In this document: positions 23,284-63,022 of the stretch, piece after piece
Layout: every line of letters begins with the position of its first letter
Numbering within the stretch: position 1 is the first letter of the stretch
Notes under the pieces: model-generated
The model's database searches: none
The model's input: only the letters and a program-made list of their open reading frames with translations
What the model was told of the DNA's origin: nothing
Assembly (NCBI GenBank): GCA_019359675.1
Contig: JAHHGX010000074.1
Span: forward strand, 1 to 64,000
Reading direction: 5' to 3'
From: Calothrix sp. FI2-JRJ7
Lineage (GTDB): Bacteria; Cyanobacteriota; Cyanobacteriia; Cyanobacteriales; Nostocaceae
Length of the DNA stretch: 64,000 nucleotides
Position numbers and translations under genes: made by a program

Positions 23284-25425
23284 CTAGTTTCTTTTCTGAG
23301 CATTACCAACAATACCTAGAATATTTATACGCGACAGTTTAAGATTATCCAACGCGCGCTTCAGTAGTGATGTATCTGTTTTATCCATCCTAATGGCAAG
23401 TAAAACCCCATTAGTATAAGGCGCCAACAAGCTTGCGTCTGCTAATTCATCTAAGTGAGGAGTATCATATATTACTAAATCGAACGTGTTTTGAAATTCT
23501 GCCATCAGTCGTTTTATCTTTTCGGATGAAAGTAGTTTGATAGGGTCTGGAGGTGTTGGCCCAGAGGTAATAATAGATAATTCTTTAATTTGAGGGTATT
23601 GTCGAATCACTTCTTCGATAGGAGAGTTTGTTGAGATTAAATTACTTAATCCCCATAAATTATTAAGGTTGGCAAGGGTGTGAATTGCTGGTTGACGTAA
23701 ATTTGCATCGACTAACAGTACACGTTGACCCATTACTGCGGCAATTTTAGCAAGATGGAAGGCAATTGTAGATTTACCATCTGAATTCATTGCCGAACTT
23801 ACTACTATTGAACGAATTGGACGGTCGGAACCGAGGAACTGTATGTTGGTATATAGGACTCGCAATGCTTCTAAAAATTTCTCTGAGTAATGACCGTAAT
23901 CTGAAACTCGCGCAATTGAAAGTTCTGGAATACTCGGATGCTGTGAGTTTATGGTTTTTATAGTGGAAATTTGTTTATTTGGACGATTTTGTCCGCTTTG
24001 AAGTTGTCTCTCAAATGGAATAGTACCTACTAATGGTAAATTGACTCCTTCTTTTAAAGCTGAAACTGTGTGGTATGTATTGTCTAACTTTTCTTGTAGA
24101 ACTGCGGCGCCTACTCCTGCTACCATACTACCAAGTAATCCCATAATTAAGGCACGTTTCGTATCTGAATTTGCGGGTGATTCTGGTTTACTAGGTGGTT
24201 GAATCAATTGCCAAGGTAATTCATTTTGCGATATTTGGATTTGTAAAGTTTCGCGTGTTGTTAGAAAACGATTTAAACTTTCGGTTGCAAGCTGTAATTT
24301 TCGCTGTAACTCAGTATATTTTCGTGCTTGTACAGGTAATTGTTTACGCAATTCTTGAAGTCTTTTTTCTGAAGAAGCTAGCTCGTTACTTTGCACTTCC
24401 AACGTTTGCACTTGTGTAGCTGCTTGTGCTGTTCTCACATCCATGAACCGTTGTGCTTCTTGCGTCAATAACGGTAATAAATTATCCCTCTTTTCTCTCA
24501 AGGTGCGAATGCTAGGACTTTCTTCCTGATAACGTGCTAGTTCAGTAGCTATTAATGCTTCTAACTGACGTACTTGTACAAGCAACTGCTGGTAAACAGT
24601 CGCATCGTTCAACACCGCAAGTTTACCATTTTCTCCGCTTAATTCAGATAAATTCGCGCGTGCTTGTGCTAACTGTTGATTAACTGCGAGTCTCTGTTGC
24701 GATAATAAATTAAGCTGACTTGCAATTTGCTGCGCTTGAGCATCTGGGTCTACAAAATTGTTTCGCTGTCTAAAAAACTGTATATCTCTTTGAATTGCGT
24801 CAACTCGTTGTTGTGATGCTGGCAGTTCTCTCTCAATAAACTTAATTCCTTGACGGAGTTTGGTTTGTTTCTTTTCTAAGCTGTAATTTAAATAATCTTT
24901 AGATATTTTTTCGGCAACATCATGAACTTGCGCTGGGTTTTCTCCTCGATATCGTACCTCAATTATCTTAGTTTCACCCAAACGCACTACAGTCAGAGAG
25001 TTAAGTAGCTTGACATAATCAACTTCTGGATAAGATTGTTGTAACGTCTTAACCACATCACCTAGTAAATCAGGACTTTTGAGAACCTGAATTTGGCTTT
25101 CGTAATCTAAAATTGTTTTCGTTGCGTTAGGGTCTTTAGTAATATCCAGTGCTTTGCTGTCATCGTTTACTGGTTCCACTAATAACCTAAAACTGCTTTC
25201 ATACTCTTTTTTCTGGTTTACTATCGAGTTAGCGTTTATCCCCATCACAATGGTTGCCACCCCAACCACAACTAACATACGGCGCCGTATAATACCCAGA
25301 AAGTCGCGAAAATTCCAATCATCACCAGTCCCTTCAGACCAAGGTAAAGGCACTGGTTCACTATATTTTTCAGAGTTCTGACTGCGTTCACGGTCTGAAG
25401 AAGAAAACTTAGAGTAATTCCCCAT
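23284..25425 (-). CDS. Wzc/GumC-like polysaccharide co-polymerase with BY-kinase domain
   Basis: This 713-residue inner-membrane protein controls polymer length/export in Wzy-type systems. Wzz domain and first membrane helix lie at about residues 40-70 (RRRMLVVVGVATIVMGI), followed by a long coiled coil (about 160-400) and a second helix near 428-445. The cytoplasmic ATPase has Walker A NSDGKST near 547, Walker A' LLVDANLRQP near 573 (Asp to Asn versus the usual DADLR) and Walker B LVIYDTP. It ends shortly after, without the C-terminal tyrosine cluster seen in enterobacterial Wzc. Presumably it serves the polysaccharide locus 11 kb to the right. Confidence 0.92.
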   Translation of the reverse strand: MGNYSKFSSSDRERSQNSEKYSEPVPLPWSEGTGDDWNFRDFLGIIRRRMLVVVGVATIVMGINANSIVNQKKEYESSFRLLVEPVNDDSKALDITKDPNATKTILDYESQIQVLKSPDLLGDVVKTLQQSYPEVDYVKLLNSLTVVRLGETKIIEVRYRGENPAQVHDVAEKISKDYLNYSLEKKQTKLRQGIKFIERELPASQQRVDAIQRDIQFFRQRNNFVDPDAQAQQIASQLNLLSQQRLAVNQQLAQARANLSELSGENGKLAVLNDATVYQQLLVQVRQLEALIATELARYQEESPSIRTLREKRDNLLPLLTQEAQRFMDVRTAQAATQVQTLEVQSNELASSEKRLQELRKQLPVQARKYTELQRKLQLATESLNRFLTTRETLQIQISQNELPWQLIQPPSKPESPANSDTKRALIMGLLGSMVAGVGAAVLQEKLDNTYHTVSALKEGVNLPLVGTIPFERQLQSGQNRPNKQISTIKTINSQHPSIPELSIARVSDYGHYSEKFLEALRVLYTNIQFLGSDRPIRSIVVSSAMNSDGKSTIAFHLAKIAAVMGQRVLLVDANLRQPAIHTLANLNNLWGLSNLISTNSPIEEVIRQYPQIKELSIITSGPTPPDPIKLLSSEKIKRLMAEFQNTFDLVIYDTPHLDELADASLLAPYTNGVLLAIRMDKTDTSLLKRALDNLKLSRINILGIVGNAQKRN

Positions 25426-26318: not shown

Positions 26319-26588
26319 ATGATGTCACCGCATTTACATGAAATAGAGCGTTCTATTGGTACTTTGTCTTTGGAAGAGCAAGAATGGCTCTTAGAGCGTA
26401 TCTCTGGACAAGTAGAACATAAAAAACAGCTACTAAATAAATTTGCTGATGCTGAATATATAGCTGAACAAATTGCTCAAATGGCTGAAGGTCCAGAGAT
26501 ACAAGCAGAAATTGCAGCTATTAATCAAGAGTTTATTGTTACAGAAATGGATGGTTTAGTAAGAGAAAGATTCTCTAAAATTGCATAG
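26319..26588 (+). CDS. Small acidic helical protein (89 aa), antitoxin-like
   Basis: This short protein opens LHEIERSIGTLSLEEQEWLLERIS, a motif common to small cyanobacterial proteins that often sit beside toxins; function not established. It is Glu/Gln-rich with a long predicted helix and no membrane segment. No toxin gene lies downstream: its 3' end overlaps the convergent VirB10-like gene by 14 bp. It may be an orphan antitoxin. ATG at 26319 or 26322. Confidence 0.55.
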   Translation: MMSPHLHEIERSIGTLSLEEQEWLLERISGQVEHKKQLLNKFADAEYIAEQIAQMAEGPEIQAEIAAINQEFIVTEMDGLVRERFSKIA

Positions 26589-28119
26589 TTTGATTTACGT
26601 ATACTTCGACTTCTCTACCAGCAGGTAAAAACCAAATATTGCTGCGTTGAGTCATTTGTGAAATTGCTTGTTGATTACGCTGGGCAATTTGGGGAACTAT
26701 GGTACTTATACCACCTTCGGCGACACCAGCTAAAATGTTGCGTCTATTGTTATTGTTGATTGTAGTAATACCAGTGCTGTTGTTAGGATAAGAAATTACA
26801 GTGTCGTTACGGTTAATTAATTCCGCAGCTTTACCAAGACCTCCTAGAAAGAATAATCCTGCATCCATCCCAGCTATTGACCCTCCTTTGCTGCGATATT
26901 GGTTTGCTACTAATGGTTTACCTTCGCGCGCGCGGATTATGATTGAATTTTCGGGTAAAGTTTTTTCTGATATAGTGTTACGGTTACGGGTTACTAGTTT
27001 AGTAACGTTGAGTTGAAGTAAACCTTGTTCGGAAATTGAACGAATTTCTGCTAATAGTTCGGTGTTAACGGGTAAAGCTATTTTATTATCTGTAGATTTG
27101 AGAGGTTCTCGCAAACGCACTACAAATACAGGTTTTCCGGTATCGTTTTTATCGCTGTTAGTCGAACGGGTGGTTTCTCCAAATACTGCGGTGGCAAATA
27201 CTGCTTTTACTGTACTACCTACTGCTACTGCTACTCGCGCTTGTGATGTTGGTGTTGGTGTTGGTGTGGGTGTTGGTGTGGGTGTTGCTGCGATAGTTGG
27301 TGTCGGAGTCGATATTATTGCTGGTGTGGGTGTTGGTGTTACTGGTATCACTGGTGATGGTGTGGGGGTTGGTGTAGGAGTGTTGCTAGCTACTGTGTCT
27401 TTTTTGTAGTAGTCGTTTAATTCTGCTAGTTTGACTAAATCTTGAAGTGAGTCTGGTGTAATTTGTGGGGTTGCTTGAATTGTTGGTTTGGGTGTAGGTT
27501 TTGCGGTTGCTTGGGGTCTTTGGGGTTGAGTTTGGGGTGCGGGTATGGTGACTATACGTATACGTTCACGTATACGTTCTGGTTGTGGTTGCACACGCGG
27601 TGGTGTGTAGTTAGTTGCTATGTTGGGGTTTGGGATTAGTCGTACTCTATTTGTAACTATTGGTTGAGTTCTAACAGGTGTTTGTGGTGTTGGTTTGGAA
27701 GATATTGGTAATGGGTTCCTAAGTTTTTGCTGTGCTGCTTTGACTGCTTGTGCTTGTTCGGTTAATGCTAGTTTTGTTTTTAAATCTTCGACTTGTGACT
27801 CTAGTTGTGGGGTGGGTTGGAGTGTTGGTTGCGCTTGTGCGGTAATGATATTGGCTTTTGGTTTTTGATTGCCTGGGTTCATTATTTGTGATAAAAATAA
27901 ACCCGCTACTAATACTACAGCGAATGTGCCGGCGCCGACTAAGCCTAGTTTTGCGAAGGGACTTGCGGATAGGGGTTGTTTGGTTTGTTGTTCTTGGGGT
28001 TCTGGTTGTATAGTGTTTTCTGGTTGGTTGTTAGTTGGATGTTTTGTTTCTAGTCCTACTAACTTTGACATTCTTGCTTCCCAGTCAGAGGCGTCTTGGG
28101 TGTTTGGTAGTTTATTCAT
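26575..28119 (-). CDS. VirB10/TrbI-like T4SS protein
   Basis: This 514-residue protein is cytoplasmic for 50 residues, has a membrane helix (about 52-75, GLVGAGTFAVVLVAGLFL), then a long Pro/Thr/Gln-rich periplasmic linker (about 85-295) with TPTPTP tandem units, then a C-terminal VirB10-like domain (about 300-514). That domain has GSTVKAVFATAVFG, FVVRLREPLKS and LPVNTELLAEIRS and ends near FLPAGREVEVYVN. The topology and linker match the VirB10/TrbI family, which spans the envelope in T4SS. It is the last gene of the VirB-like series. The C-terminal match is by recollection. Confidence 0.75.
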   Translation of the reverse strand: MNKLPNTQDASDWEARMSKLVGLETKHPTNNQPENTIQPEPQEQQTKQPLSASPFAKLGLVGAGTFAVVLVAGLFLSQIMNPGNQKPKANIITAQAQPTLQPTPQLESQVEDLKTKLALTEQAQAVKAAQQKLRNPLPISSKPTPQTPVRTQPIVTNRVRLIPNPNIATNYTPPRVQPQPERIRERIRIVTIPAPQTQPQRPQATAKPTPKPTIQATPQITPDSLQDLVKLAELNDYYKKDTVASNTPTPTPTPSPVIPVTPTPTPAIISTPTPTIAATPTPTPTPTPTPTSQARVAVAVGSTVKAVFATAVFGETTRSTNSDKNDTGKPVFVVRLREPLKSTDNKIALPVNTELLAEIRSISEQGLLQLNVTKLVTRNRNTISEKTLPENSIIIRAREGKPLVANQYRSKGGSIAGMDAGLFFLGGLGKAAELINRNDTVISYPNNSTGITTINNNNRRNILAGVAEGGISTIVPQIAQRNQQAISQMTQRSNIWFLPAGREVEVYVNQTMQF

Positions 28120-28175
28120 GATTTTATGTGTTTTTTATTTTACCTTATTACGCGCAGAGGGCACAGAGAGGGTAG

Positions 28176-28235
28176 GGTGCGTCAAAGCTATTACAATCTT
28201 CAATAAAAATAAAAATTGATCTGCTTTGACGCACC
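28176..28235. repeat. Palindromic repeat (GGTGCGTCAAAGC arms)
   Basis: GGTGCGTCAAAGC (28176-28188) and GCTTTGACGCACC (28223-28235) are exact reverse complements around a 34-bp AT-rich loop, with GGTAGGG just before the left arm. It lies between the VirB10-like gene and the upstream VirB8-like gene; the right arm directly abuts the TAA stop of the latter. Related arms (GGTGCGTGACGCT, GGTGCGTGAAAGC) flank the other end of the cluster at 35745-35920. Confidence 0.85.
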
Positions 28236-28889
28236 TTACGAGCAGTTTTTATCGTTGATGTCGCAAACGTTATATATTTGTAGTCTTGCTTCTCCTAGAC
28301 GGGAGACTGTTATGTTTAGTGGTACTGGTAAATTTGGTAGTGAGGCAAACGGCGCCTCTACTGCTTGTACTAAAATTTGTTTATTAAAGGGGATTGTTTT
28401 TCCTAATTTATCAGAGTTGGTGAAGATGATTTGATTGGCGATTATTTCAACTTTCCATCTGCCCTCACTTATTTTAGTAGGTTGCCCAATAGTTTGGATG
28501 ACTAAAACGTTTTCGGTACCCTGACTCAATGTTTCTGAAGGACTAATTATTGATTCTAATTTCGGCTTTAAGTTATCGTTGACTAAAACAGAAGTAGTTT
28601 GCCAAACCATTCGTGGTTGTTGCTGCTGTGACCAAGTGAGCATTAAAGTCATTGTTTCACCCACAAACCGTCTTATTGTCTCCGGATACCTTTCCATATC
28701 AGGTTTTGGGTCTACACTTATCGCACGTCCATCAATTAACTGCACCAAACTTTGAGGAGTTAAGCGCTGTTGCAACTCCTGTAACAACGACCAATGAAAC
28801 GTCAACAACAAAAAAGTAAACAAATGTAACCCAAACGTTGCTACAGTAAACAACGGCAAAAAACTACTTCTCTTAACCTCTGATTTCAT
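28236..28889 (-). CDS. Single-TM periplasmic protein, VirB8/VirB9 position (paralogue 2)
   Basis: This 217-residue protein has a short cytoplasmic N-terminus, one membrane helix (about 10-35) and a periplasmic domain. It shares FGLHL, LVQLIDGRAI, PETIRRFVGETMTLM and IIFTNSDKLGKTIPFNKQIL segments with the neighbour at 29343-30170, so the two are paralogues. Single-helix topology and position in the operon suggest VirB8-like, but the sequence match is weak. The frame opens at 28985 inside a repeat; the ATG at 28889 has a good ribosome-binding site (GGGAGAGG). Confidence 0.7.
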   Translation of the reverse strand: MKSEVKRSSFLPLFTVATFGLHLFTFLLLTFHWSLLQELQQRLTPQSLVQLIDGRAISVDPKPDMERYPETIRRFVGETMTLMLTWSQQQQPRMVWQTTSVLVNDNLKPKLESIISPSETLSQGTENVLVIQTIGQPTKISEGRWKVEIIANQIIFTNSDKLGKTIPFNKQILVQAVEAPFASLPNLPVPLNITVSRLGEARLQIYNVCDINDKNCS

Positions 28890-28940
28890 CACCTCTCCCT
28901 GTGTGAACTCTGTGTCTCTGTGGTAAAAAATATTATAATT

Positions 28941-29126
28941 GTCATGAGTCGCGAACGTTAACGCAGTTTTCCCGCAGGGTAGCATCTAAATAATATTAAT
29001 ATAATTGTCATGAGTCGCGAACGTTAACGCAGTTTTCCCGCAGGGTAGCATCTAAATAATATTAATATAATTGTCATGAGTCGCGAACGTTAACGCAGTT
29101 TTCCCGCAGGGTAGCATCTAAATAAT
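28941..29126. repeat. Tandem direct repeats, 66-bp period, array A
   Basis: Units starting GTCATGAGTCGCGAACG at 28941, 29007 and 29073 are essentially identical (two full, one partial), each with ACGCAGTTTTCCCGCAGGG. Units abut directly with no unique spacers, so this is not CRISPR. The array lies in the 453-bp gap between the two VirB8-position paralogues. Confidence 0.9.
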
Positions 29127-29140
29127 CTACAAGTTATATA

Positions 29141-29335
29141 GATTCTTCGCTACGCTCAGAATGACAGTTTAGAGATTCTACCCTCCGGGAAAACTCCGTT
29201 TACGCTACGCTCAGAATGACAGTTTTAGAGATTCTACCCTCCGGAAAAACTCCGTTTACGCTACGCTCAGAATGACAATTTATAGATTCTACCCTCCGAG
29301 AAAACTCCGTTTACGCTACGCTCAGAATGACAGTT
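29141..29335. repeat. Tandem repeats, 55-56-bp period, array B (inverted relative of A)
   Basis: Units starting GATTCTACCCTCC at 29174, 29230 and 29285, preceded by one shortened unit from 29141, each carry GCTACGCTCAGAATGAC. The reverse complement of the unit core (GGAGTTTTCCCGGAGGGTAG) matches the array A core (GCAGTTTTCCCGCAGGGTAG), so A and B are inverted relatives that can pair. A similar string (GATTCTGAGCGAAGCG) is at about 16453-16484. Confidence 0.88.
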
Positions 29336-29342
29336 TACAATT

Positions 29343-30170
29343 TTACTTAATAAAAGTCTGGTCATTCTTCAAATTCCCACAAGACTTATCCTGACTCAAA
29401 CCAGTATACTCATCCACCAAACATAAATTTCTAATCTCATAAATTTCCAACTTATCAGCACGAACACTATAAATAGCTTTTTGTAAATCAGTCTTCATAC
29501 TTTGTGGATACCCAAAAGCATCAACCGAACGCACAAGCAAATCCTTATTAAAGGGAATTATCACACTGCGGTTATCAGACTGTTTTTTCTGTATTAAATC
29601 TGCCACCATTCCAACTTGCCACTTACCAGGAGCAATTTTCTTAGGTGGATATATCCTTTTAACCGCTAACCGTGACACAATAGCTTGACTCTTGTTATTT
29701 AAAAAAACTTCAGGTGGAGTCATTTCTGCTATCTTTTCCAAAAACCCCTTACGGAAATCTTCAGATAAAGCAAACCCAGCAACCCAACTAGTAGTACTAA
29801 TTTTTTGATTCCCTTTTCCTGTTGGTACTGATATACCCGCATCTGGTTTAGGTTGTGTTGCTTCTTCGATAGACTGTGGTGGTAACTTTCCTGACCAGGT
29901 AAACATCAACGACATAGTTTTATTTACAAACTGACGTATCGTCTCAGGTTCCGGTTCTAAGTTAGATTTAATTTCTTGCGAATTTATATCTACCGTTTTA
30001 CCATCTATCATCTGCACGAAATTCGGGGGTTTCTGTAAACTCAACGAGCGAATGTTTAACCCCTGTAACACCAGCATCGATAAAGCTAATAGATGTAACC
30101 CAAAAGTTGTAAACGCAAAAATCGTTAGAACGCTTGTTTTAGCTTTTTTCTTTTCGAGTAAACGAACCAT
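29343..30170 (-). CDS. Single-TM periplasmic protein, VirB8/VirB9 position (paralogue 1)
   Basis: This 275-residue protein has one N-terminal membrane helix (about 15-37, VLTIFAFTTFGLHLLALSML). A periplasmic domain with PNFVQMIDGKTVDI, PETIRQFVNKTMSLMFTWS and VIIPFNKDLLVRSVDAFG follows. It is paralogous to 28236-28889. It sits between the VirB6-like gene (14 bp apart) and the paralogue, exactly where virB8 lies in virB operons. VirB8-like topology is the main support; sequence support is weak. Confidence 0.7.
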   Translation of the reverse strand: MVRLLEKKKAKTSVLTIFAFTTFGLHLLALSMLVLQGLNIRSLSLQKPPNFVQMIDGKTVDINSQEIKSNLEPEPETIRQFVNKTMSLMFTWSGKLPPQSIEEATQPKPDAGISVPTGKGNQKISTTSWVAGFALSEDFRKGFLEKIAEMTPPEVFLNNKSQAIVSRLAVKRIYPPKKIAPGKWQVGMVADLIQKKQSDNRSVIIPFNKDLLVRSVDAFGYPQSMKTDLQKAIYSVRADKLEIYEIRNLCLVDEYTGLSQDKSCGNLKNDQTFIK

Positions 30171-30183
30171 TTGTCACACCTCG

Positions 30184-31212
30184 CTAAACTCTATCTCGAA
30201 CTAATGCACCCGTATAGCTAATGGCATTAAATATCGCAAACCCTCCTGCACCTGCTATAACTAGAGAAACAATAGGCGCCAATAAACCAAGAAAAATCAT
30301 AAACCACATCAAGTCAGGGTCAGTATTGGCATTTTGTCCTGGCCCGTTGACAATGACTGCGGCTGTTATTATGGCGATAATATTAAAAGATATTTTAGAA
30401 ATTCCTAAACATAGAAATCCTGTTAACCATGCAAAAATTGGTTTACCTGCAACTGGTAGTAATGAACCTCCTACTGCGAGTGGACCTAAAGCAGCTACTA
30501 ACAACATCGTAGCTTCGATCAGGTTCTGAAATGCATACTGTAATGAAATAAAAAAGTTTTTAATAATCGTTTGCATTGTCGAACCAAGCAATGCGTTAAA
30601 AGTGCTTTCTGATACAGCCCCTTGACTATAAGCAATTTGAGTTACTTTAGTCTCTAAGCGGTCTATCCAAATTTGATTCCCGTATAAATTCCGATATTCT
30701 TGCCAAAGTAAGCTAGCTTTTTCACTTGCTTTTACTAAGCATTGAGTTTGCTGTTCTCCCAAAAGTGACCCACATGGACGCAGTAAAGACCCCGCTATTT
30801 CTTCACCAGTACTCATGTTTAAAGCTTGCTGATATATTTTATTCGCGTCTGCTGTTGTGATAATTTGCTGGTTGACTGTATTGAGTAAATTCCTAACTCC
30901 TAGTGTCAGGTTAGATAATGCACTCCCAGTTCCTGTGTTCGTAAGTAATAATACTATAATAAACGGCCATATTAAAGCTGATATTGGTCGCGAATAGTCA
31001 CTATATATTAAATCTTTGAGCCATTGGAACATGAAAAATAATAATGTACCAACTGCAAAAAATATACCTAGGTTTGTTAAGGCGCCGTAAAAGCTATTAT
31101 TACTTTGTAATAAATCTAACCACTGTTTGTCCCATGCTTCGGCGATACTCTTTGCTGTAGTGGCGCCGCTACCTATTACATTATCTATACCAGTTTGGGC
31201 TAAATAAAACAT
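30184..31212 (-). CDS. VirB6/TrbL-like polytopic membrane protein
   Basis: This 342-residue protein has about six membrane segments. A central periplasmic loop (about 130-210) contains two Cys in GSLLGEQQTQCLVKA, and a C-terminal helical block contains ATMLLVAALGPLAVGGSLLP, WLTGFLCLGISKISFNIIAI, and PDLMWFMIFLGLLAPI. The GPLA...F.W/LTGF..L.I.KI arrangement is characteristic of VirB6/TrbL pore proteins. It is 2 bp from the upstream VirB5-like gene and 14 bp from the next, so the operon is tightly coupled. Confidence 0.75.
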   Translation of the reverse strand: MFYLAQTGIDNVIGSGATTAKSIAEAWDKQWLDLLQSNNSFYGALTNLGIFFAVGTLLFFMFQWLKDLIYSDYSRPISALIWPFIIVLLLTNTGTGSALSNLTLGVRNLLNTVNQQIITTADANKIYQQALNMSTGEEIAGSLLRPCGSLLGEQQTQCLVKASEKASLLWQEYRNLYGNQIWIDRLETKVTQIAYSQGAVSESTFNALLGSTMQTIIKNFFISLQYAFQNLIEATMLLVAALGPLAVGGSLLPVAGKPIFAWLTGFLCLGISKISFNIIAIITAAVIVNGPGQNANTDPDLMWFMIFLGLLAPIVSLVIAGAGGFAIFNAISYTGALVRDRV

Positions 31213-31214
31213 AG

Positions 31215-32006
31215 TTAAGGTTTTCGACCGAATAAGTCAGTTTGAGATGTGGTACGCAAAAGTCGCGCTGCTTCGGTTGAGTTATCGACTCGACGCGCAC
31301 GGTTTGTGTCTTCTATCTGCTCTCCGATACTGGCTAGGTTTAGGTTTGAGTATTGTAAAAGCTGGTTTTCGTGAATTGTTTGTGCAAGCGTTTCGGCGAT
31401 GATTTTTGATTGGTCACGCTGAATTCTAATTTGCTGTAATGTTAAATTGGATTGATTTATGGCGTTGAGTAAGGTTCCGATGAGTGGGTTGTTACTACTA
31501 ATTTGAGTAAGTTGACTAACTTGATTCTGAGCTTCGCTAACAAAATCTTGGTTGATTTTATCTGCTTCTTCGCTGAATGCGTCTATATTTTTTAATTCTC
31601 TTTCGATGTTTTGAAGTTTAATTTTTGTTCGTAGTTGTCCGTTGTTGCCTAATGTACCAGCAGCAGAACTGCGAAATATTAAACGGTTCATTTCGTTGCC
31701 GAAAACTCTTGAGTTGATTAGGGGGTTTGTTTCATAGTTGCTGGATAATAAGTTTATGTTGATGTCGTTGCTAAGTATTTCTCCGGCGCCTAGTGGGTTA
31801 GGGATGTTGAGTTCTCCTGTGGCGCCTGTTATAGCGCTTTGGCTTTGTATTTGTAAGGGGTTTAGTTCATTAAGGTTGTTTCTAAGATGGTTTTGTAGGT
31901 CTGCTGAGTAGGATTGAAAGTCTGTCCATACTTGCCCTAGTTGTGCGGTGGCTGGTAAGGTAATAATGAGGGAGAGAAAAGAAGTAATTATAAAGATTTT
32001 TTTCAT
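31215..32006 (-). CDS. VirB5/TrbJ-like secreted coiled-coil protein
   Basis: This 263-residue protein has a clear signal peptide (residues 1-21; cleavage likely after PATA before QLGQVW), then a mostly helical, Gln/Asn-rich mature protein with a long C-terminal coiled coil (about 130-240). In VirB operons this position holds VirB5/TrbJ, a periplasmic or pilus-tip protein with the same signal-plus-helices plan. Gene order is the strongest argument; there is no motif I can point to. Confidence 0.65.
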   Translation of the reverse strand: MKKIFIITSFLSLIITLPATAQLGQVWTDFQSYSADLQNHLRNNLNELNPLQIQSQSAITGATGELNIPNPLGAGEILSNDININLLSSNYETNPLINSRVFGNEMNRLIFRSSAAGTLGNNGQLRTKIKLQNIERELKNIDAFSEEADKINQDFVSEAQNQVSQLTQISSNNPLIGTLLNAINQSNLTLQQIRIQRDQSKIIAETLAQTIHENQLLQYSNLNLASIGEQIEDTNRARRVDNSTEAARLLRTTSQTDLFGRKP

Positions 32007-32013
32007 ATAAAAA

Positions 32014-34755
32014 TTAAGACGGTTTTCTTAGGGATGTAATTAGTTGATGTGCGAATTTTGATATTGCTTCGTATTTGTCGGGGTATTTTTTCATAATTAT
32101 GTTTCGCGCGTTTTGTTCGTTGGGGTTATTGGCTACTACTGCTAGTTGTTCGTATCCTGGATAGTAACGGCAAAAGGTATATATACCGTTATTATCTAAT
32201 AACCATTGGCTGTATACTCCTTCTTTTCTTGGAAAAAAGCTTTCTGATGCGTTGCGTGAGATGATTTCGCGTGGGTATTTTAATATGTCTACAAAGCTAT
32301 CTATCGCAACGGGTTGGATACGTCCAACTAGTCTTGTTGTTAAGTTTTGTAATATCTTAGATGCAGCTTTTGATTTGGCGATAGTGTCCGGGTCTTGGGC
32401 TGATAAAATAACTCTTATTCCTGCTTTGGCGCCGTTGGCACATATTCTACCAACAAGATTGGCGATTTGCTCGAATTCAAACAAGATTGGCGCCTCGTCG
32501 ATGAAGAATATTGATGCTGGGTTACTAAGTGCGCGACGTAATGCTGCTGAGTATGCGCTCAATGATAATATTGCTGCGTCTTCACTATCTGATAAATTTC
32601 GTAGAGCAAATACTAATAGTTGAGCATCGGTGGGAAAGCTCGATGGTGCTGATATTGCTTGTCCGACTCGACTCGATAACCAAAACCGCAACCGCAAACG
32701 AATTTGACTAAGTGCGTCTTCAACTCGCTGACTCATTGCGTCCAGTTGTAAATGTTCGGGTGAACAAAAGTAGAGAAAATCTTGTAAGGTTGGTGTTTTT
32801 TGCCATGCTGTAGTTCCAAACCCTCCTTCCATTGCTGTTCTATATCTTTGTTTTATCCCCTCGTCGGCAAAGAATGCTGTTAATGCAATATTTAATAGTG
32901 AGCGTACTGTTTGTGATAACAATGGGTTGTCGGTTTCGGCGCCTAATACCATTGTCATGAGTGCCGATTCGAGGAAAGCTGTATAATCTAGCTGACGGTC
33001 GCGTTGTTCTTCTGGTGATAATAAGCGTAGGTCTGGCTGCTCAAATAAATTGTTCGATTGCTTTGATATGTCAAAATAGGCGCCTCCTTCTATAAACTGT
33101 GTGTAGTCAGTAAATGTTGATGTTCCATCGGGTTTAGGAAAATCTAAAGCAACTACTGGTATATTATGTGCTAAAGCTTGCGTTAATATCCCTGATACTA
33201 ATACTGATTTACCTGCGCGTGTTGTGGCAAATAAAGCTAAGTTCTTATGTTCATTAAATAAATCTAAATGTATCGGTGTCCCACCTTCTTCTGCGATTAA
33301 TTCAAACCCGTACTTGTCACTGGGTTTGGTCAGCACTAAAGGCATTAAACCAGGAACTTCGCTGGTTAAATATAATTGGCGCCGATTAAATGGTTTCGCT
33401 AATAATTTTTCCCATACAATTGGTAAAGTTTGTAGCCATATTTTCCAAGTGTACTGAGTTTCTCTTACTACTTCTGCTGGACGTTGAAAGCAATTTTCTA
33501 TATATCTCGTTGCTTCGTCTAGTTGTTCGACGGTGGAACGATGGACGAAAATAACTACTCCTGCGTAAATTGGTACGGCGCCTTCGTATAATTGTTCTTG
33601 CGCTGCTACTGATTTTCTTAACTTTAACTGAGCATTAACGTCAATCGTTTTACTTTTTTCTTGAGCCATTAATGCGGTCATATTCGACTGCTTTAACACT
33701 CGCTGTAACGTTGTTTTGACCAAAGCTGGGTTTGCCGCAGTGAGTTGACAAAATACTTCTGTGTCTACAACCGTTTCACGTGCTAATAATTCCCATAAAT
33801 ATCGTAACTGCGCTGTTTTATTCTGCCAGCTACCAGGTTTTTCTAGAAATGTTAAGGCGCCTATATAATTATCTTTAACATGAATCCAACGACGGTCTGC
33901 ACAGGGTATACTTGATTTGATTAATAGTGTTGTACTATGAATATTTTCTAATAGTAGTTTAGTACTTGCTAAATCAGAATGAACTTCTTCGTTGAGTCCA
34001 TTTTCATCGAATGTAAGCAACTGCGGAATAGGGATGGGTGGATTATTATTAAAACGGCGCCAAATTTCACTCCAAAGTTGTTCAGTAGTCAAAGGTCGAA
34101 TATCGAGTGCCATTTTATTGGCTAATACTTGCTCCCAGCGACAAAATCCTTGAAAAGCATCGGCAATAATAGCTTCGAGTCGCTGATTCTCGACTTCTGC
34201 GACTTCTCCCTTGAATTTAAGCCAGAATAATTCAGCTTTGGCTAAAATTCGTTCTATCCAATCACTTGTATTAGTCGAATTGCTTTCCACTGTATAAGTG
34301 ACATAAATTCGTAGAAATTTTGGCTTGCGAACACCATTACTCGTAAGTTCTTGAATACGCGCGCGTTCTGCGAGCAGTAAATATTTTATATCTTTTGAGG
34401 GGACATTTTTAATTAGAGACGCAAGTTCTTCTTGCCGTTGAGCATCTGAACTAAACGAACCAAGGTGAAAAGTAATTTGCTCGTTGACGGGGATATCCTT
34501 TAAACCAGCTTCGATATTACCAATGATTTGGTCGATTTGTTCTGTTCTCAAAGTCGTATGAATACCACGACACTCAAAACCGAAGACAAAGCATAATCTA
34601 TCCTTTTGAGTTCCTTGTGTCAAAATATAGGCGCCAATATCGCGTCCACCTAGTGAAATCCGCAACATTGTAGCCAAATTGAGCGCATCCTCAAACGGAG
34701 TTAATCTTTCACTTCCTGTTCCTTCGACGCTTTGCTTTCCGATTTTTTCCTTCAT
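32014..34755 (-). CDS. VirB4-like T4SS ATPase
   Basis: This 913-residue cytoplasmic ATPase has a large N-terminal domain (about 1-440) followed by the VirB4/TraC-type motor. Walker A is ATTRAGKSVL near residue 513 (first Gly replaced by Ala), Walker B is IFFIDEAPILFEF near 752, then VILSAQDPDTIAKS, the usual VirB4 sensor region. The motif HLDLFNEHKNLALFATT directly before the P-loop fits the family. Its start codon lies inside the 3' end of the VirB3-like gene (47-bp overlap). It is the longest gene of the cluster and the one that most firmly names it. Confidence 0.85.
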   Translation of the reverse strand: MKEKIGKQSVEGTGSERLTPFEDALNLATMLRISLGGRDIGAYILTQGTQKDRLCFVFGFECRGIHTTLRTEQIDQIIGNIEAGLKDIPVNEQITFHLGSFSSDAQRQEELASLIKNVPSKDIKYLLLAERARIQELTSNGVRKPKFLRIYVTYTVESNSTNTSDWIERILAKAELFWLKFKGEVAEVENQRLEAIIADAFQGFCRWEQVLANKMALDIRPLTTEQLWSEIWRRFNNNPPIPIPQLLTFDENGLNEEVHSDLASTKLLLENIHSTTLLIKSSIPCADRRWIHVKDNYIGALTFLEKPGSWQNKTAQLRYLWELLARETVVDTEVFCQLTAANPALVKTTLQRVLKQSNMTALMAQEKSKTIDVNAQLKLRKSVAAQEQLYEGAVPIYAGVVIFVHRSTVEQLDEATRYIENCFQRPAEVVRETQYTWKIWLQTLPIVWEKLLAKPFNRRQLYLTSEVPGLMPLVLTKPSDKYGFELIAEEGGTPIHLDLFNEHKNLALFATTRAGKSVLVSGILTQALAHNIPVVALDFPKPDGTSTFTDYTQFIEGGAYFDISKQSNNLFEQPDLRLLSPEEQRDRQLDYTAFLESALMTMVLGAETDNPLLSQTVRSLLNIALTAFFADEGIKQRYRTAMEGGFGTTAWQKTPTLQDFLYFCSPEHLQLDAMSQRVEDALSQIRLRLRFWLSSRVGQAISAPSSFPTDAQLLVFALRNLSDSEDAAILSLSAYSAALRRALSNPASIFFIDEAPILFEFEQIANLVGRICANGAKAGIRVILSAQDPDTIAKSKAASKILQNLTTRLVGRIQPVAIDSFVDILKYPREIISRNASESFFPRKEGVYSQWLLDNNGIYTFCRYYPGYEQLAVVANNPNEQNARNIIMKKYPDKYEAISKFAHQLITSLRKPS

Positions 34756-35077
34756 GATTTCTCAGGATGCTGTGATAACGGGCAAATCCTCTAGTCCAAG
34801 TCGGAACACCGATAAACTTACTTAAAAAGCGCCAACTTTTACCTCCTGTGAGTATCCACCAAGTGGCAATTCCCCATGTCGCAACTAATGCAGTCCACAA
34901 CCATCTTTGAAACCCATCTTGAAATAAACCTCCAAAAATACCGTTGATAATGAAATAAGAAGCTAAAGCAATAATCGTCCAAGGCAGCACCTGGTCAGCT
35001 GGTATAGGTCCCAACGAAGGCTGACTACCGAGTATTCTATTAACTGGACGAAAATCCTTATCTTTATCTTGACTCAT
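34709..35077 (-). CDS. VirB3-like small membrane protein
   Basis: This 122-residue protein is cytoplasmic for about 35 residues, has two membrane helices (about 32-50 and 60-80), and a Lys/Arg-rich C-terminal tail ending RKAKRRRNRK. Position directly before virB4, with the genes overlapping by 47 bp, and the two-helix plan match VirB3, which often pairs with VirB4. No strict sequence motif, so the call rests on context. Confidence 0.6.
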   Translation of the reverse strand: MSQDKDKDFRPVNRILGSQPSLGPIPADQVLPWTIIALASYFIINGIFGGLFQDGFQRWLWTALVATWGIATWWILTGGKSWRFLSKFIGVPTWTRGFARYHSILRNHEGKNRKAKRRRNRK

Positions 35078-35589
35078 TAATTACCAATTACAAATCCTGT
35101 AAGTACATCAGCAATTGTAACAGCAATCACAACCAGCAAAGGAGTTCTAGCGATATTCTGCCAGTCATCATCCCTACGAACTGCGTTAATTACGCCAATT
35201 AGAGCTACTGCTATATACAGTAAATACAACGCCCGTAGCACGTTAAAAATCAAACTTATGGCCGCTTGCGTACCAGCAGCATTAGTAGTATTAGAGGTAC
35301 CTTGTGTTAAGTTCGTTCTGAAAAAATCCTCCGCACGTTTAAAAAACTGAGCTTGAGCCGGGTCTGCAAAATAGTCTAACCAAAAACAAGCTAAAATGAC
35401 ACTTACTGCAACAACCTGTAAAAATATAACTTGGCGCCTGGGTAAATTGACTTGGCGCCCGATTTGATGTATAATTACTGAAATTAAACTACCTGCGAGC
35501 AAGCAAAACAGCAGCACAGGACTTTTCAAGCTAATGGCGCCTAATAGTATTGTGCAGGCGATTAAGAAAGGTATAAATTCAAGCATCAT
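35077..35589 (-). CDS. VirB2/TrbC-like pilin-type membrane protein
   Basis: This 170-residue protein has N-terminal hydrophobic segments (about 5-45 and 55-75), then PAQAQFFKR, a plausible signal-peptidase site, then two membrane helices (about 108-133 and 148-165) joined by a charged loop (RRDDDWQNIAR), ending VLTGFVIGN. The two-helix mature region resembles VirB2/TrbC pilin subunits, but the N-terminal part is longer than usual. It is the first gene of the operon, sharing an ATG/TAA junction with the next gene. Confidence 0.6.
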   Translation of the reverse strand: MMLEFIPFLIACTILLGAISLKSPVLLFCLLAGSLISVIIHQIGRQVNLPRRQVIFLQVVAVSVILACFWLDYFADPAQAQFFKRAEDFFRTNLTQGTSNTTNAAGTQAAISLIFNVLRALYLLYIAVALIGVINAVRRDDDWQNIARTPLLVVIAVTIADVLTGFVIGN

Positions 35590-35744
35590 TAAATACCGAG
35601 ATTACAGTAACCTTCTCAGAACAATAAAAAGTACATGTATAACTATTTTCGACAGGTGGTCATGTTAATAATGATATAATGATACATTAATTTTGTTCGT
35701 CAAGATACTATAAAACTTTGATTACATTTTTTTTATATTGTTAC

Positions 35745-35920
35745 GGTGCGTGACGCTCAGAAAAAATTGAGGTAGGGTGCGTGACGCTTAAAAAAATTTG
35801 AGCGTGGTTACAAGACTTGTAGCGTCACGCACCAGCACCAGTTACTTCCTTAATCAGGTGCGTGAAAGCACTTTATATTGCGTTACATTGATTGATTGTA
35901 ATGGCTTTCACGCACCCTAC
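35745..35920. repeat. Nested palindromic repeats (GGTGCGTGACGCT and GGTGCGTGAAAGC)
   Basis: Three left arms (35745-35757, 35776-35788 and 35857-35869) and two right arms (35821-35833 and 35904-35916) make two clean hairpins: GGTGCGTGACGCT with AGCGTCACGCACC, and GGTGCGTGAAAGC with GCTTTCACGCACC. The unit's outer edge GGTAGGG supplies the TAG stop of the WcaF-type gene (35917-35919). The rest of the 327-bp gap must contain the VirB operon promoter; it is not recognised. Confidence 0.85.
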
Positions 35921-36456
35921 CATTTTCGTCGTTTAACAGGTTGTGCGGGATTACCTGAATAAATGGTCATTGACTCTAAAGAATGAGTGGTGACACTACC
36001 CAAAGTCAATACAGCACCCTTACCAATAGTTACACCCGGCCCAATCATCGACTTAGCGGCAATCCAACTACTTTCTTGAATATAAATAGGAGCTACAGAC
36101 AATTTGAAACTAGCGTCGCTCCAATCATGATTACCAGTACATAAGTACACAGCTTGAGACAAACAGACATGATTTTCGATCTTTACATGAGCAAGATTAT
36201 CAATCCAGCAATCTTCACCAATCCAAACACAATTGCCAACAGTTAGGCGCCAAGGAAATTTTACCCTAACACCAGGTTTAATCCGAACTAGTTGCCCAAT
36301 TTGCGCTCCAAATAAGCGAAGTATCCCAACTTTAATATTAGACATTGGCAACCAATGGCATTCCACCAAAGGAGAACCGACGAAGTACCATAGAATTTGC
36401 TTCCATAAAGGCGCCCCTGGTGTATAAGTGCCGATAGTATATTGGTCTAAACGCAT
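35917..36456 (-). CDS. WcaF-type polysaccharide O-acetyltransferase
   Basis: This 179-residue left-handed beta-helix (hexapeptide repeat) acyltransferase is likely to O-acetylate an exopolysaccharide. Features are the N-terminal extension LWKQILWYFVGSPLVECHWL, the repeats IGEDCWIDNLAHVKIENHVCLS, the active-site-like LCTGNHDW (His) and IGPGVTIGKGAVLTLGSV. The repeats-plus-NHDW signature is typical of the WcaF family of cyanobacterial and enteric EPS loci. The stop codon lies in the palindromic repeat. Confidence 0.9.
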   Translation of the reverse strand: MRLDQYTIGTYTPGAPLWKQILWYFVGSPLVECHWLPMSNIKVGILRLFGAQIGQLVRIKPGVRVKFPWRLTVGNCVWIGEDCWIDNLAHVKIENHVCLSQAVYLCTGNHDWSDASFKLSVAPIYIQESSWIAAKSMIGPGVTIGKGAVLTLGSVTTHSLESMTIYSGNPAQPVKRRKW

Positions 36457-59806: not shown

Positions 59807-60820
59807 TTAAACTCGCGCGAACGCAATTTTATCGACTGCGAGTTTTAAGAGCAGCGTCATTTCGCCAGTTTTCACATCGACAGTGAACAGGGAATTAGTT
59901 CCCTCATTGTTGGGGTCAGCAAGCGCAAACAGTTGACCTGATGAAGAAAAAGCTAGACTTGCCAAGTCATTGTCCAGCGGTTTTTTGTTAAAGCTTAATC
60001 CTACCAAGGGGATAATCTTTCCCCTGCCAGTAACTACTGCCCGGTTTTCTAGGTCTAGCTGCACTAAACTTGTGGTGTCTTGACCACCAACATTAGTAGC
60101 GTAAATTTTTCCATCCGGAGATTTAGCAAGGTTACTGAGTCTTTGATTAGGTGGCAGCGTTGGCAGACCCGTCTGGGCACTAGCATCTACTTGACCTGAG
60201 TTGGGGTCAATAAATGCCAACTCAAAAGGCGCCACACCTTCTGCTAAACTAACTACACTAAGCAACTGGTCGCCTTTTTTGTCTTTTATAGTAGTGAAGA
60301 GCAAACTTTCCACCGTACTAAACTTCTTGTCTTTGGTTTTTTTGATTTTCAATCCTTTTTTAGGAGGCTTTTTCCCATTTCCTTTAGGAGGTTCAATAAA
60401 TATAAGGCGACTGAAATCGCCATTCTTAGTGGTCGCTGTAGCAGCTATAACGAATGTGTTATCGGATAAGACAGTAAAACCAGTTATCCGCTCGCTGGGC
60501 TTTTTTACAACAAAGGCTTTAGTTGCTGTCTCAGTGGTTTCCTCTTGGTTACTAACTGTTACCGTAGGAATTTCAGTAGATACCAACTGCTGACCAGTTG
60601 TCAAGTTTATGGATTGTAAGATAATTTCCGGGGTGGTGTTAGCTGCGGCAGCGTCAACTAAGTCTTGTGTTTTACTGCTGCTAATTGAAGAAAGGAGTAC
60701 ACCAAAAAGCTGCTCCGACTCTTGTGCAATGACCTTGGATGTGGAGTTGGCGAGCGCTGTTGTGACAGCGCTTACAATAGCCAATTGTCCAAATCTTCGC
60801 CGTTTTATTCTAAAATTCAT
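59807..60820 (-). CDS. Predicted Tat-exported, propeller-like hypothetical protein
   Basis: This 337-residue protein has a basic N-terminal RIKRRRFGQLAIVSAVTT segment (twin-arginine-like signal, cleavage near residue 35), then a Thr/Lys-rich stretch and repeated short strands containing LSNLAKSPDGKIYATNVGG and LASLAFSSSGQLFALADP, the SPDG-type blade signature of beta-propellers. It has a lysine-rich loop (KGNGKKPPKKGLKIKK) near residue 150. I do not recognise the family. Start Met at 60820 preferred over 60829. It is transcribed with the genes around it. Confidence 0.55.
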   Translation of the reverse strand: MNFRIKRRRFGQLAIVSAVTTALANSTSKVIAQESEQLFGVLLSSISSSKTQDLVDAAAANTTPEIILQSINLTTGQQLVSTEIPTVTVSNQEETTETATKAFVVKKPSERITGFTVLSDNTFVIAATATTKNGDFSRLIFIEPPKGNGKKPPKKGLKIKKTKDKKFSTVESLLFTTIKDKKGDQLLSVVSLAEGVAPFELAFIDPNSGQVDASAQTGLPTLPPNQRLSNLAKSPDGKIYATNVGGQDTTSLVQLDLENRAVVTGRGKIIPLVGLSFNKKPLDNDLASLAFSSSGQLFALADPNNEGTNSLFTVDVKTGEMTLLLKLAVDKIAFARV

Positions 60821-60844
60821 AACAAGCACTCCTAGTACAGTTTT

Positions 60845-63022
60845 TCAAGGCACAATTATCTTTGCGCCGGGAGTTACAGGTTTGGCACCCATATCTGCCA
60901 GGATATTAACAACCATTTGCTTGACGCGAACATCTTCGCGTGGAGCAGTAACGCCATAGCTATCTAACCCCCACATAAACTGAATGGAGCCAGTCGAAAA
61001 GACCTTGGCGCCACTGGCAGAAGTAAAGCGAACTGCTTGGGAAATTCGGGGATCTGTTCCAGCAGGAAAACCCTCTAACTCAGCTTGATCAAGGTTTTGC
61101 AACTGTGTGGACTCGCTTAGACTGACCAACCCACTTAGAGATGTGTTTAGATTCATTGCATCCCATTCAAAGCCCACCAAACCACTCAATTTATCACCAT
61201 TATTCAGGTTTGTGTTGGCGTAGTAAGGATTGTTACTGTTTTTTACCACGAAATCGAACCCATCGAAATAGAAATTCTGCCACCTTCCTCCAATGTACAT
61301 ATTTCCTTTCAACGCGCTCTCTGGCTTGTTGTTTTCTGGGCTGCGGAACTTGTTTGTTGGTGCTACAGGGTCTGAGGTATTTTTATAACATGCCATAACC
61401 CTGTTGGGTGTCCCCGTACTGGAGTTTTCAAAGCGTACTCGCCAGTAAACACTGTTTCCTGAGAAAAAACCTTTGTTGACACTGCTGGTCTGGACACTAT
61501 TAAACTCCTCTAGCGACCAGTACTCGTCGTGACCGACCGACAGAAATACTTTGTGCTGTTGCAGCAAATTTGGGTTGGCGTGGATGTCCACGTTAGTTAC
61601 ATAGGATACATCATATGCCTGTGATTCTAGCCACCGGATCATATTGTGTTCCCAAGCCATGATAATGTTGTTATAAGGATTAGCGCCACTTAAAGTGCCA
61701 TGTTGTGCGAATGGTCGGTCGTAAGAAACCTTAAACGCTCTTTGACCTCCTATACTATGATCTGGGTATAAAGAATAACCACCACCTAGATTGTAAGCCA
61801 GCAAAGTGTTGAAGCTGCTCTGGAATAATATGTCAGACCCTCCACTGTCATCGCGAACAACAAACAATACCTGGGACTGATTGCCAGTTCTCTGGTCGGT
61901 TAGCTTGGCAATATACAAACCACTCGTCCAGTCAGATCCCACTGGTAACGTGTAGGAATCTGACCATTGACATTCGATTTTGCGGGTAGAATTGTCAAAA
62001 CTACATGCGGGCTGAGTAATTCCATTCAACTGACCACTGCTTAATATCAGTCGGCCACCTTGACCTCCGTAATAACCTAAGCGGTACACATCAATGGTAT
62101 AATTTCCAGGTTGTGCTAGGGAAACTTTGATTGGCAGGGAGCCGCCCTTATCTACACTAGTTGCTGCTGCATAGCCAGCAATATCTGATTGAGGAGATTG
62201 GGGAATCTGCCAGCCTGTACTACCAGGTTTCTGGTTTTCCAAATAAATGGCATTAGTAGTTCCTGGATTAGCTGTGGCAGTGAAGGTGAGGCTGCCTATA
62301 CCAGAAGCCGTCGCACTCACAGTATTTGTTGTACCAACCGTTGCACCCAGCGTTAGCACTGTGCTGGCTTGACCATTGGTACCAGTTACTGCACTGGTAG
62401 GCGAGACTGATCCCCCGCCACTGGCAACGGCAAAGTTGATCGTGATGCCAGCAGTAGGATTGCCACTACTATCTGTGACTTTTACGACCAACGGGTTAGA
62501 TAAAGCAGAGCCTGCCGTGCCACTCTGATTATCTCCGCTTACTTTAGTAAGGCTATTGCCAGGGACAAATACTATGTCGCGAAAATAGTTGCTGTTTTGA
62601 TGAGAATTAGTTGGGAATGAATTGGGTGTACCATAAACTGCATTATTGTTATCAGCAACTGACCTGAGATCCCCATTCACAATTGAGGTTCCCAATATAT
62701 TCTGCGTGACACCAAAATAGCTATTGCAACTGACGGTGACTACATAAGTTGTGTTGGCTTGGATGCTTAACGGTGTGCTGAGAACCTGTTGCTGCCAACC
62801 CGAAGCCGTCTCATTCAAGAAAGTAACGTTTGCTAAAATAGCTCCCGTTGCCGACCAAATTCTACCTACATGGGCGCCAGTCTCATTAACCGCTTTCCAA
62901 TAGCGAATCGCGGTAATTTGACCAGCCTTTGCACTCTGGAACTTCATTCCCAGTTCATAGGAGACACCATCGCTCCATTCAAACCCAGGCACCTGACTTG
63001 TAAAGATAGTTTGTTGAGCCAT
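60845..63022 (-). CDS. DUF4082-Ig-DUF6605 (N,N-dimethylformamidase-like) multidomain protein
   Basis: This 725-residue protein has no signal peptide visible at its Met. Domains in order: DUF4082 (about 1-155; GQITAIRYWKAVNETGAHVG, LNETASGWQQQVL, VVTVSCNSYFGVT), a bacterial Ig-like domain (about 160-255; GTAGSALSNPLVVKVTDSSG, then ATAS.SLTFTA), and a C-terminal region (about 262-715) like the DUF6605/N,N-dimethylformamidase beta-subunit C-terminal domain (PGNYTIDVYRLGYYGGQGGR, then SVGHDEYWSLEEFNSVQ). Such proteins are seen in secreted glycan-binding or glycan-processing contexts; no catalytic function is shown. Confidence 0.82.
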   Translation of the reverse strand: MAQQTIFTSQVPGFEWSDGVSYELGMKFQSAKAGQITAIRYWKAVNETGAHVGRIWSATGAILANVTFLNETASGWQQQVLSTPLSIQANTTYVVTVSCNSYFGVTQNILGTSIVNGDLRSVADNNNAVYGTPNSFPTNSHQNSNYFRDIVFVPGNSLTKVSGDNQSGTAGSALSNPLVVKVTDSSGNPTAGITINFAVASGGGSVSPTSAVTGTNGQASTVLTLGATVGTTNTVSATASGIGSLTFTATANPGTTNAIYLENQKPGSTGWQIPQSPQSDIAGYAAATSVDKGGSLPIKVSLAQPGNYTIDVYRLGYYGGQGGRLILSSGQLNGITQPACSFDNSTRKIECQWSDSYTLPVGSDWTSGLYIAKLTDQRTGNQSQVLFVVRDDSGGSDILFQSSFNTLLAYNLGGGYSLYPDHSIGGQRAFKVSYDRPFAQHGTLSGANPYNNIIMAWEHNMIRWLESQAYDVSYVTNVDIHANPNLLQQHKVFLSVGHDEYWSLEEFNSVQTSSVNKGFFSGNSVYWRVRFENSSTGTPNRVMACYKNTSDPVAPTNKFRSPENNKPESALKGNMYIGGRWQNFYFDGFDFVVKNSNNPYYANTNLNNGDKLSGLVGFEWDAMNLNTSLSGLVSLSESTQLQNLDQAELEGFPAGTDPRISQAVRFTSASGAKVFSTGSIQFMWGLDSYGVTAPREDVRVKQMVVNILADMGAKPVTPGAKIIVP

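Follow-up and report, generated by a model that had tools for sequence, protein, structure and literature searches.

What does a type IV secretion system (T4SS) do when neither a relaxase nor the coupling protein VirD4 is encoded beside it? T4SSs are known for conjugation, effector delivery and DNA uptake, and the question is raised here by a stretch of 64,000 nucleotides from the cyanobacterium Calothrix sp. FI2-JRJ7 (contig JAHHGX010000074.1, positions 1 to 64,000; the whole stretch is referred to as the window), in which eight open reading frames (ORFs) of the minus strand, running from 35589 to 26575, form a T4SS-like operon exactly as delimited in a preliminary description. The machine is very probably non-conjugative and domesticated, and in most lineages it is likely to be Pho-linked. 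The two taken jointly, as a domesticated T4SS derived from the cyanobacterial MPF_C type that is non-conjugative and, in most lineages, Pho-linked, constitute the explanation that is favoured here with fair confidence, on the evidence of sequence comparison. The earlier wording, an "export or contact machine", remains a reasonable proposal.

The operon and its plasmid relatives

All eight genes are homologous, at the profile level, to genes of cyanobacterial conjugative plasmids of the MPF_C type, and HHalign pairs each with its positional counterpart in cyanobacterial loci that bear VirD4 (probability 99.8-100), which upholds the VirB2-, VirB3-, VirB4-, VirB5-, VirB6- and VirB10-like assignments made earlier. 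Public profiles (Pfam, NCBIfam) match only VirB4 and VirB10, the other six proteins having no meaningful match in either database. VirB4 matches TIGR02746 (TraC, 4.1e-13) and TIGR00929 (6.1e-10), each falling far short of its curated cut-off, and VirB10 matches PF03743 (TrbI, 2.1e-9, 38 bits vs a cut-off of 35). The Walker A motif of VirB4 is TTRAGKS at residue 511 and its Walker B motif is FFIDEA at residue 750, with G515, K516, S517, D753 and E754 invariant among 18 sequences. This ATPase is of the cyanobacterial type (HHalign 100 to VirB4 of VirD4-bearing loci), and the genera named among the 114 plasmid records that match it are cyanobacteria. The PDB matches of the VirB4 sequence profile were mainly weak ones, to ATPases of the FtsK and HerA types and to one coupling protein, while the profiles of B2, B8, B10 and P1 had no useful match there. 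Alignments of VirB2, inspected by eye, have an A-x-A-Q-F-F processing-like site, common to the plasmid copies, and a D-[DE]-D-W loop between the two hydrophobic segments.

The preliminary description placed two single-transmembrane proteins in a VirB8-VirB9 slot; the VirB8 part of this assignment stands and the VirB9 part does not, both genes being VirB8 paralogues (VirB8a and VirB8b). The two find each other by profile and are 26-34% identical when aligned. Each is monophyletic in the tree (support for VirB8b 99/94), and together they are set apart from plasmid VirB8 (96/92), save for a weakly placed, long-branch plasmid row (L131). The fold check that had been proposed agrees: the AlphaFold2 model of VirB8b (mean predicted local distance difference test score, pLDDT, 77) matches VirB8-type structures, its first 28 fold matches in the PDB being VirB8-type T4SS proteins, or T4SS complexes containing them, with TrwG, TraM, TraE, CagV and TraH among the matches and 16 of the 28 at E <= 0.001. 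A VirB9 identity of the second protein is thus ruled out by profile, tree and model fold. Because relatives align to VirB8b only from near residue 31 onward, its start is probably Met33 (about 28889).

With MPF_C plasmid systems, whose gene list is part of general background, the operon shares the B2, B3, B4, B5, B6, B8 and B10 families and their order, as well as P1 in most relatives. It differs from them in the duplication of VirB8, in having no P2, VirD4 or relaxase adjoining and, in the lineage of the window, in the lack of P1. Here P1 and P2 denote the pair that separates VirB10 from VirD4 on plasmids, where annotated records and profiles give the order B2-B3-B4-B5-B6-B8-B10-P1-P2-VirD4, with a relaxase near in some; in pCC7120alpha, alr7206 is VirB4 and alr7213 is VirD4 (PMC8600333, available sections).

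Within the clade of loci that carry the VirB8 duplication, P1 is present in 67 of the 92 complete distinct loci, whereas P2 occurs in genome G165 only. The P1 of the window genome is a plasmid-type copy on another contig, C82. P1 was also considered as a possible VirB9; its model is poor (pLDDT 58), and the best match is Legionella Dot/Icm (7muc, E 4.8e-3). Where relatives have P1, the window holds an ORF of 89 residues (26319-26588) that overlaps the end of virB10 on the opposite strand. It may be an orphan antitoxin, because its homologue in locus L096 adjoins a PemK/MazF-type toxin gene (L096:17905-18252, PF02452, 6.6e-27).

Lineage, conservation and the search for conjugation genes

One branch of the VirB4 tree, supported by a Shimodaira-Hasegawa-like approximate likelihood ratio test (SH-aLRT) value of 98, separates the 63 rows that have a duplicated VirB8 from all 21 VirD4-bearing rows; none of the 63 has VirD4 in the stretch examined. 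The tree was produced by a quick search and comprises 92 rows, of which eight carry neither label and two of the 63 belong to the same genome; L067, L068, L085, L092, L103 and L127 were omitted because they are truncated, duplicated or broken, and long plasmid branches were flagged, which leaves the order among the inner plasmid rows uncertain. Neighbours in the tree broadly share genera. The first branch among the duplicated rows is G165, which has P1, an opposite-strand P2 and no VirD4 in the fetched stretch, and which is plausibly an intermediate between the plasmid system and the domesticated operon. The sequences show that the relaxase and VirD4 were lost and VirB8 was duplicated in an ancestor; P2 later disappeared outside G165 and P1 in some lineages, with a single operon retained that comprises the pilin, VirB3, the VirB4 ATPase, VirB5, VirB6, two VirB8 proteins and VirB10.

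The operon is found mostly in the family of the window, the Nostocaceae, which in the wide sense are the heterocyst formers. Of 217 genomes of the family, 189 have a VirB8b match, strong in 174 (E <= 5.4e-46) and weak in 15. In a sample of 386 genomes of the phylum, strong matches occur in 23 of 43 family members and in one of 343 others (G155), and in a sample of the order, VirB4 of at least 80% identity is present in nine of 18 family genomes. The naming of the sampled family follows from VirB4 relatives with known names, such as Dulcicalothrix, Calothrix and Nostoc, which are 79-99% identical. Of 96 distinct loci, 92 have the full set of eight genes and 88 have it in the canonical order on one strand, so the operon is not a product of chance, and the conservation across relatives that had been suggested as a check is borne out. 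The four exceptions to the order are G155 (half inverted), the rearranged copy on the plasmid of Gloeothece PCC 7822, and L103 and L155 (each with a split gene). Several copies are chromosomal, being placed on contigs 5 to 11 Mb long, and those on draft contigs are presumably chromosomal too. One copy was found in the window genome; several Calothrix-type genomes carry two, belonging to two sub-clades (L055/L089, L090/L105, L096/L091, L100/L093).

When the window is compared with five relatives, the ratio of nonsynonymous to synonymous substitution rates (dN/dS) ranges from 0.01 to 0.31 over all eight genes and is highest in B5 and B10, and by this measure the operon is retained under purifying selection, mostly in one family. 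Other close pairs include a few high values on few changes (B5 1.10 and P1 0.59 in L078/L102, B2 0.63 in L087/L110). A decaying remnant of an integrated conjugative element might be suspected from the missing relaxase and VirD4, from the further loss of P1 in the window and from a few broken copies (VirB4 of L103; B3 and P1 of G388). Such decay is hardly credible against the low dN/dS of every gene relative to the five relatives, even with some short genes at 0.4-1.1 in other close pairs, and against the invariant Walker residues and the gene order kept in nearly all distinct loci.

The claim that no relaxase or VirD4 lies beside the operon is upheld: across the 96 distinct loci of the clade, the examined stretch never contains VirD4, its downstream flank having a median of 4.2 kb. 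Flanks this short could miss a farther VirD4 outside the genomes that were searched whole, which counts against a non-conjugative machine. The whole-genome search covered 12 operon-bearing genomes, namely that of the window (G000, a draft of 91 contigs) and others of 1 to 3 contigs each. The VirD4 profile PF10412, to which plasmid VirD4 controls score 2.6e-25 or better, has no match anywhere in nine of them, and in the other three (G000, G388, G309) each is accompanied by a second, plasmid-type VirB4. The relaxase profile PF03432 has no match in eight of the 12 (the MobV and MobF families were not searched genome-wide), and in the remaining four its match is either on a different contig from the operon or over 0.7 Mb away. 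The BLAST search of the flanks for relaxases had one valid query (Mob2), the Mob1 fragment being void as probably out of frame. No VirB11 gene is present in the window operon; VirB11 was not searched genome-wide.

Thus, the scan for relaxase and coupling protein proposed earlier confirms their absence at the locus and not in the window genome, where contig C82 carries, at about 126-147 kb, a relaxase, VirB4, P1 and VirD4 as a distinct set of plasmid type; "no relaxase" is therefore true of the locus and not of the genome. The C82 genes could suggest a mating-pair machine that serves in trans plasmids with their own VirD4 and relaxase. However, C82 has its own VirB4 and P1, and the two profiles are missing from most of the genomes searched, as given above, so such a role is very unlikely. 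The view that the locus is not a conjugation island or integrative conjugative element also holds, the same exopolysaccharide genes flanking the operon in its nearest relatives. No element boundaries at a variable insertion site were found there, the genes on both flanks being common to those relatives, and there is no tRNA gene in the window (integrases were not searched). Contig C3 of G220 (6.8 Mb) bears two further MPF_C copies (L112 and L113), one of them with VirD4 matched in two ORFs; both are possibly integrated elements.

T4SS clusters that contain VirB4 and no relaxase, termed MOBless, have been described with cyanobacteria among the environmental bacteria having them (Guglielmini et al. 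2011, PMC3158045, available sections). The operon resembles these in having VirB4 and no relaxase, whereas the treatment there is a genome-wide count, and the available sections of that source mention neither an operon conserved in one family nor a duplicated VirB8 or a link to Pho.

Phosphate genes and Pho-box-like sites

A PhoX (17), PstS-like (7) or PhoA (1) gene lies at most 2 kb upstream of the operon in 25 of 93 loci, outside the lineage of the window, as compiled by hand from a neighbour search; by a rough estimate, chance would place PhoX this near in about 0.14 of 93 loci. All 32 matches to phosphate genes are on the virB2 side, the downstream side being covered less. Pfam assigns the tested neighbours to PhoX, alkaline phosphatase and PBP_like_2, with PhoD behind PhoX in L143 and L145, and the PstS-like neighbours match TIGR00975 (PstS) below the cut-off. 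No phosphate gene was found beside non-clade loci, the two matches there being truncated clade members. PhoX itself has 1-6 matches per genome in 13 of 14 genomes, numbers on which the chance estimate above is based. Additionally, two loci (L099:6506-8329 and L150:1272-3071) encode, upstream of the operon, proteins of roughly 600 residues with a twin-arginine-like start and no Pfam match.

The published cyanobacterial Pho box consists of three 8-bp repeats with 3-bp linkers (PMC1906773, available sections). A matrix built from 21 published sites was applied to 93 operon upstreams, made up of a first set of 62 and of 31 new distinct loci, which were held out and are kin of the first set by descent; nine duplicates had been removed, and L058, L142 and L176 have no usable upstream. 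Relative to 515 controls from which phosphate genes had been removed, 43 of the 93 upstreams fall in the control tail of <=0.05 (4.7 expected), as do 14 of the 31 held out. In an earlier run, with PhoX and PstS-like genes still among the controls, 27 of 62 passed at 5% and 3 of 62 at 1%, and none of 20 upstreams from VirD4-bearing loci passed at 5%, PhoX upstreams accounting for 6 of the 12 top control scores. Three perfect TTAA cores at 11-bp spacing precede virB2 in 37 of 93 loci, and spacings of 8-10 and 12-14 bp occur in 0 to 4 of 93. This pattern was first noticed in an alignment and first counted on loci including those aligned, so that count is not independent; among the held-out loci the perfect triplet is present in 12 of 31, vs 5 of 515 controls (Fisher 6e-13, not corrected for kinship). 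The degenerate triplet of the window (Table 1) is a possible relic of a Pho box.

Several points weigh against the Pho link and its extension to the window. Tightening the tail to 1% leaves only 5 of 93 upstreams (0.9 expected) and one of the 31 held out, and 40 of the 93 loci have neither a perfect box nor a phosphate gene. The loci are related: at 88% VirB4 identity they collapse into 26 clusters, of which 4 have a perfect box, 11 a phosphate gene and 12 either, and at 85% into 18 clusters, of which 2 have a perfect box and 8 either sign. The upstream site of the window is not significant by the matrix (control tail 0.28), no phosphate gene adjoins its operon, and PhoX has no match in its genome; PhoX is therefore not a universal cargo. 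Moreover, shared regulation does not make phosphatases the cargo. The phosphorus link is drawn from neighbours and putative boxes in many lineages, not in that of the window.

In most lineages the machine would probably be part of the phosphate-starvation response, which in cyanobacteria runs through the regulator SphR, and serve phosphorus scavenging. A stronger form, in which it is a fixed phosphate-starvation organ of the Nostoc family, Pho-switched together with PhoX, PhoD or PstS genes and devoid of a coupling protein, is quite possible, though the odds are somewhat against it; scavenging would then proceed by release of folded periplasmic phosphatases, by a capture fibre or by DNA intake. 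The last of these could resemble Helicobacter pylori ComB, with a fibre drawing DNA from outside the cell into the periplasm, where it would supply phosphorus during phosphate starvation. No VirD4 adjoins the operon, the Pho link is present in many lineages, and ComB is likewise a T4SS core whose operons lack VirD4 (PMC13395361, available sections). According to the same source, however, ComB operons have no VirB5, which is said to suit uptake, and ComB needs VirB11 in trans, whereas the operon described here keeps VirB5 and holds no VirB11 gene (VirB11 having been looked for in the operon and not genome-wide); a ComB-like uptake machine is rated as quite unlikely.

For the favoured domesticated machine, the lack of VirD4 would mean that cytoplasmic DNA-protein substrates are not recruited. 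Bordetella Ptl is a T4SS without VirD4. We can speculate that cargo would be taken out of the periplasm in a Ptl-like manner through the VirB10 channel, or that a VirB2/VirB5 fibre would be displayed. The likeness to Ptl lies in the absence of a coupling protein, periplasmic cargo being a proposed analogy, and Ptl belongs to another MPF class. The export of periplasmic scavenging proteins or surface proteins is put forward tentatively, as rather less likely than not.

The exopolysaccharide setting and the meaning of the operon

In the window, as in its six nearest relatives, the operon is embedded in a cluster of exopolysaccharide genes, and related genes adjoin it in G220. The WcaF-type acetyltransferase gene upstream (Table 1) adjoins the operon in all six of these relatives, and the Wzz-domain gene downstream in L055, L056, L090, L096 and L100. 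As a general context for the operon the exopolysaccharide link was rejected, being limited to the sub-lineage of the window, to kin such as G220 and to Gloeothece; it is regarded as likely to reflect a later move in the lineage of the window.

Table 1. Coordinates in the window of the operon genes, the upstream site and the two adjoining genes
Feature	Position	Strand	Basis and remarks
Wzz-domain, BY-kinase-like exopolysaccharide gene, downstream context	23284..25425	-	PF02706 Wzz 2e-7
VirB10/TrbI-like, 514 aa, Pro/Thr-rich linker	26575..28119	-	PF03743
VirB8b, 249 aa as called, VirB8a paralogue	28236..28985	-	VirB8-fold model, tree
VirB8a, 275 aa	29343..30170	-	same family as VirB8b; HHalign 100 to plasmid B8 (a and b pooled)
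VirB6-like polytopic protein, 342 aa	30184..31212	-	HHalign 100 to plasmid B6
VirB5-like, signal-peptide-like start, 263 aa	31215..32006	-	HHalign 99.80 to plasmid B5
VirB4/TraC-like ATPase, 913 aa	32014..34755	-	TIGR02746, TIGR00929, Walker motifs
VirB3-like, 122 aa, overlaps virB4	34709..35077	-	HHalign 100 to plasmid B3; 52% identity over 110 columns
VirB2/TraA-like pilin precursor, 170 aa	35077..35589	-	AxAQFF site, two hydrophobic segments; HHalign 99.92 to plasmid B2
Degenerate TTAA triplet, 11-bp spacing	35662..35691	-	11/12 core letters; about 100 bp upstream of virB2
WcaF-type acetyltransferase, upstream neighbour	35917..36456	-	NF007797 3.7e-71, over cut-off

The Pro/Thr-rich repeat of virB10 (27062-27409) is marked by a strong GC skew (0.415 in 27001-28000), and the antisense ORF there is likely spurious.

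Farther along the window are a large DUF4082/Big_1/DMFA2_C protein (60845-63022) and a protein of 340 residues (59807-60829). On the Gloeothece PCC 7822 plasmid, homologues of these two (57% and 32% identity, respectively) begin a run into the T4SS genes, with one further gene in between and polysaccharide export genes near. The DUF4082/DMFA2_C homologue lies 25-37 kb from virB8b in G220, G296, G297, G300, G301, G311 and G312. Because its homologue heads the Gloeothece run and lies at that distance in seven relatives, the protein is a possible candidate cargo in the exopolysaccharide context. If the machine exported large surface proteins or proteins related to exopolysaccharide, and the phosphate link were secondary, both the cluster setting and the head of the Gloeothece run would be accounted for. 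Such an exporter is nevertheless unlikely, because that setting is limited to this sub-lineage and Gloeothece, and the surface-protein homologue is far from the operon in G361, G389, G303 and G405. As regards the domesticated, Pho-linked machine, its use in the lineage of the window may have drifted, given the exopolysaccharide setting, the lack of P1 and a switch that is only degenerate.

In the openly licensed literature no description was found of the operon, of its VirB8 duplication or of a phosphate-linked cyanobacterial T4SS. Term searches gave no "conjug", "TrbI", "type IV" or "PhoX" in PMC1906773, and no "secretion system", "VirB" or "TrbI" in PMC3610870. The loci would form a domestication series that leads from the plasmid system through the G165 intermediate to a nine-gene and then an eight-gene form. 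If the favoured explanation is true, most examined members of a major nitrogen-fixing family would put a T4SS to housekeeping use in nutrient acquisition, which would bear on how these cyanobacteria acquire phosphorus and could be tested in genetically tractable Nostoc strains.

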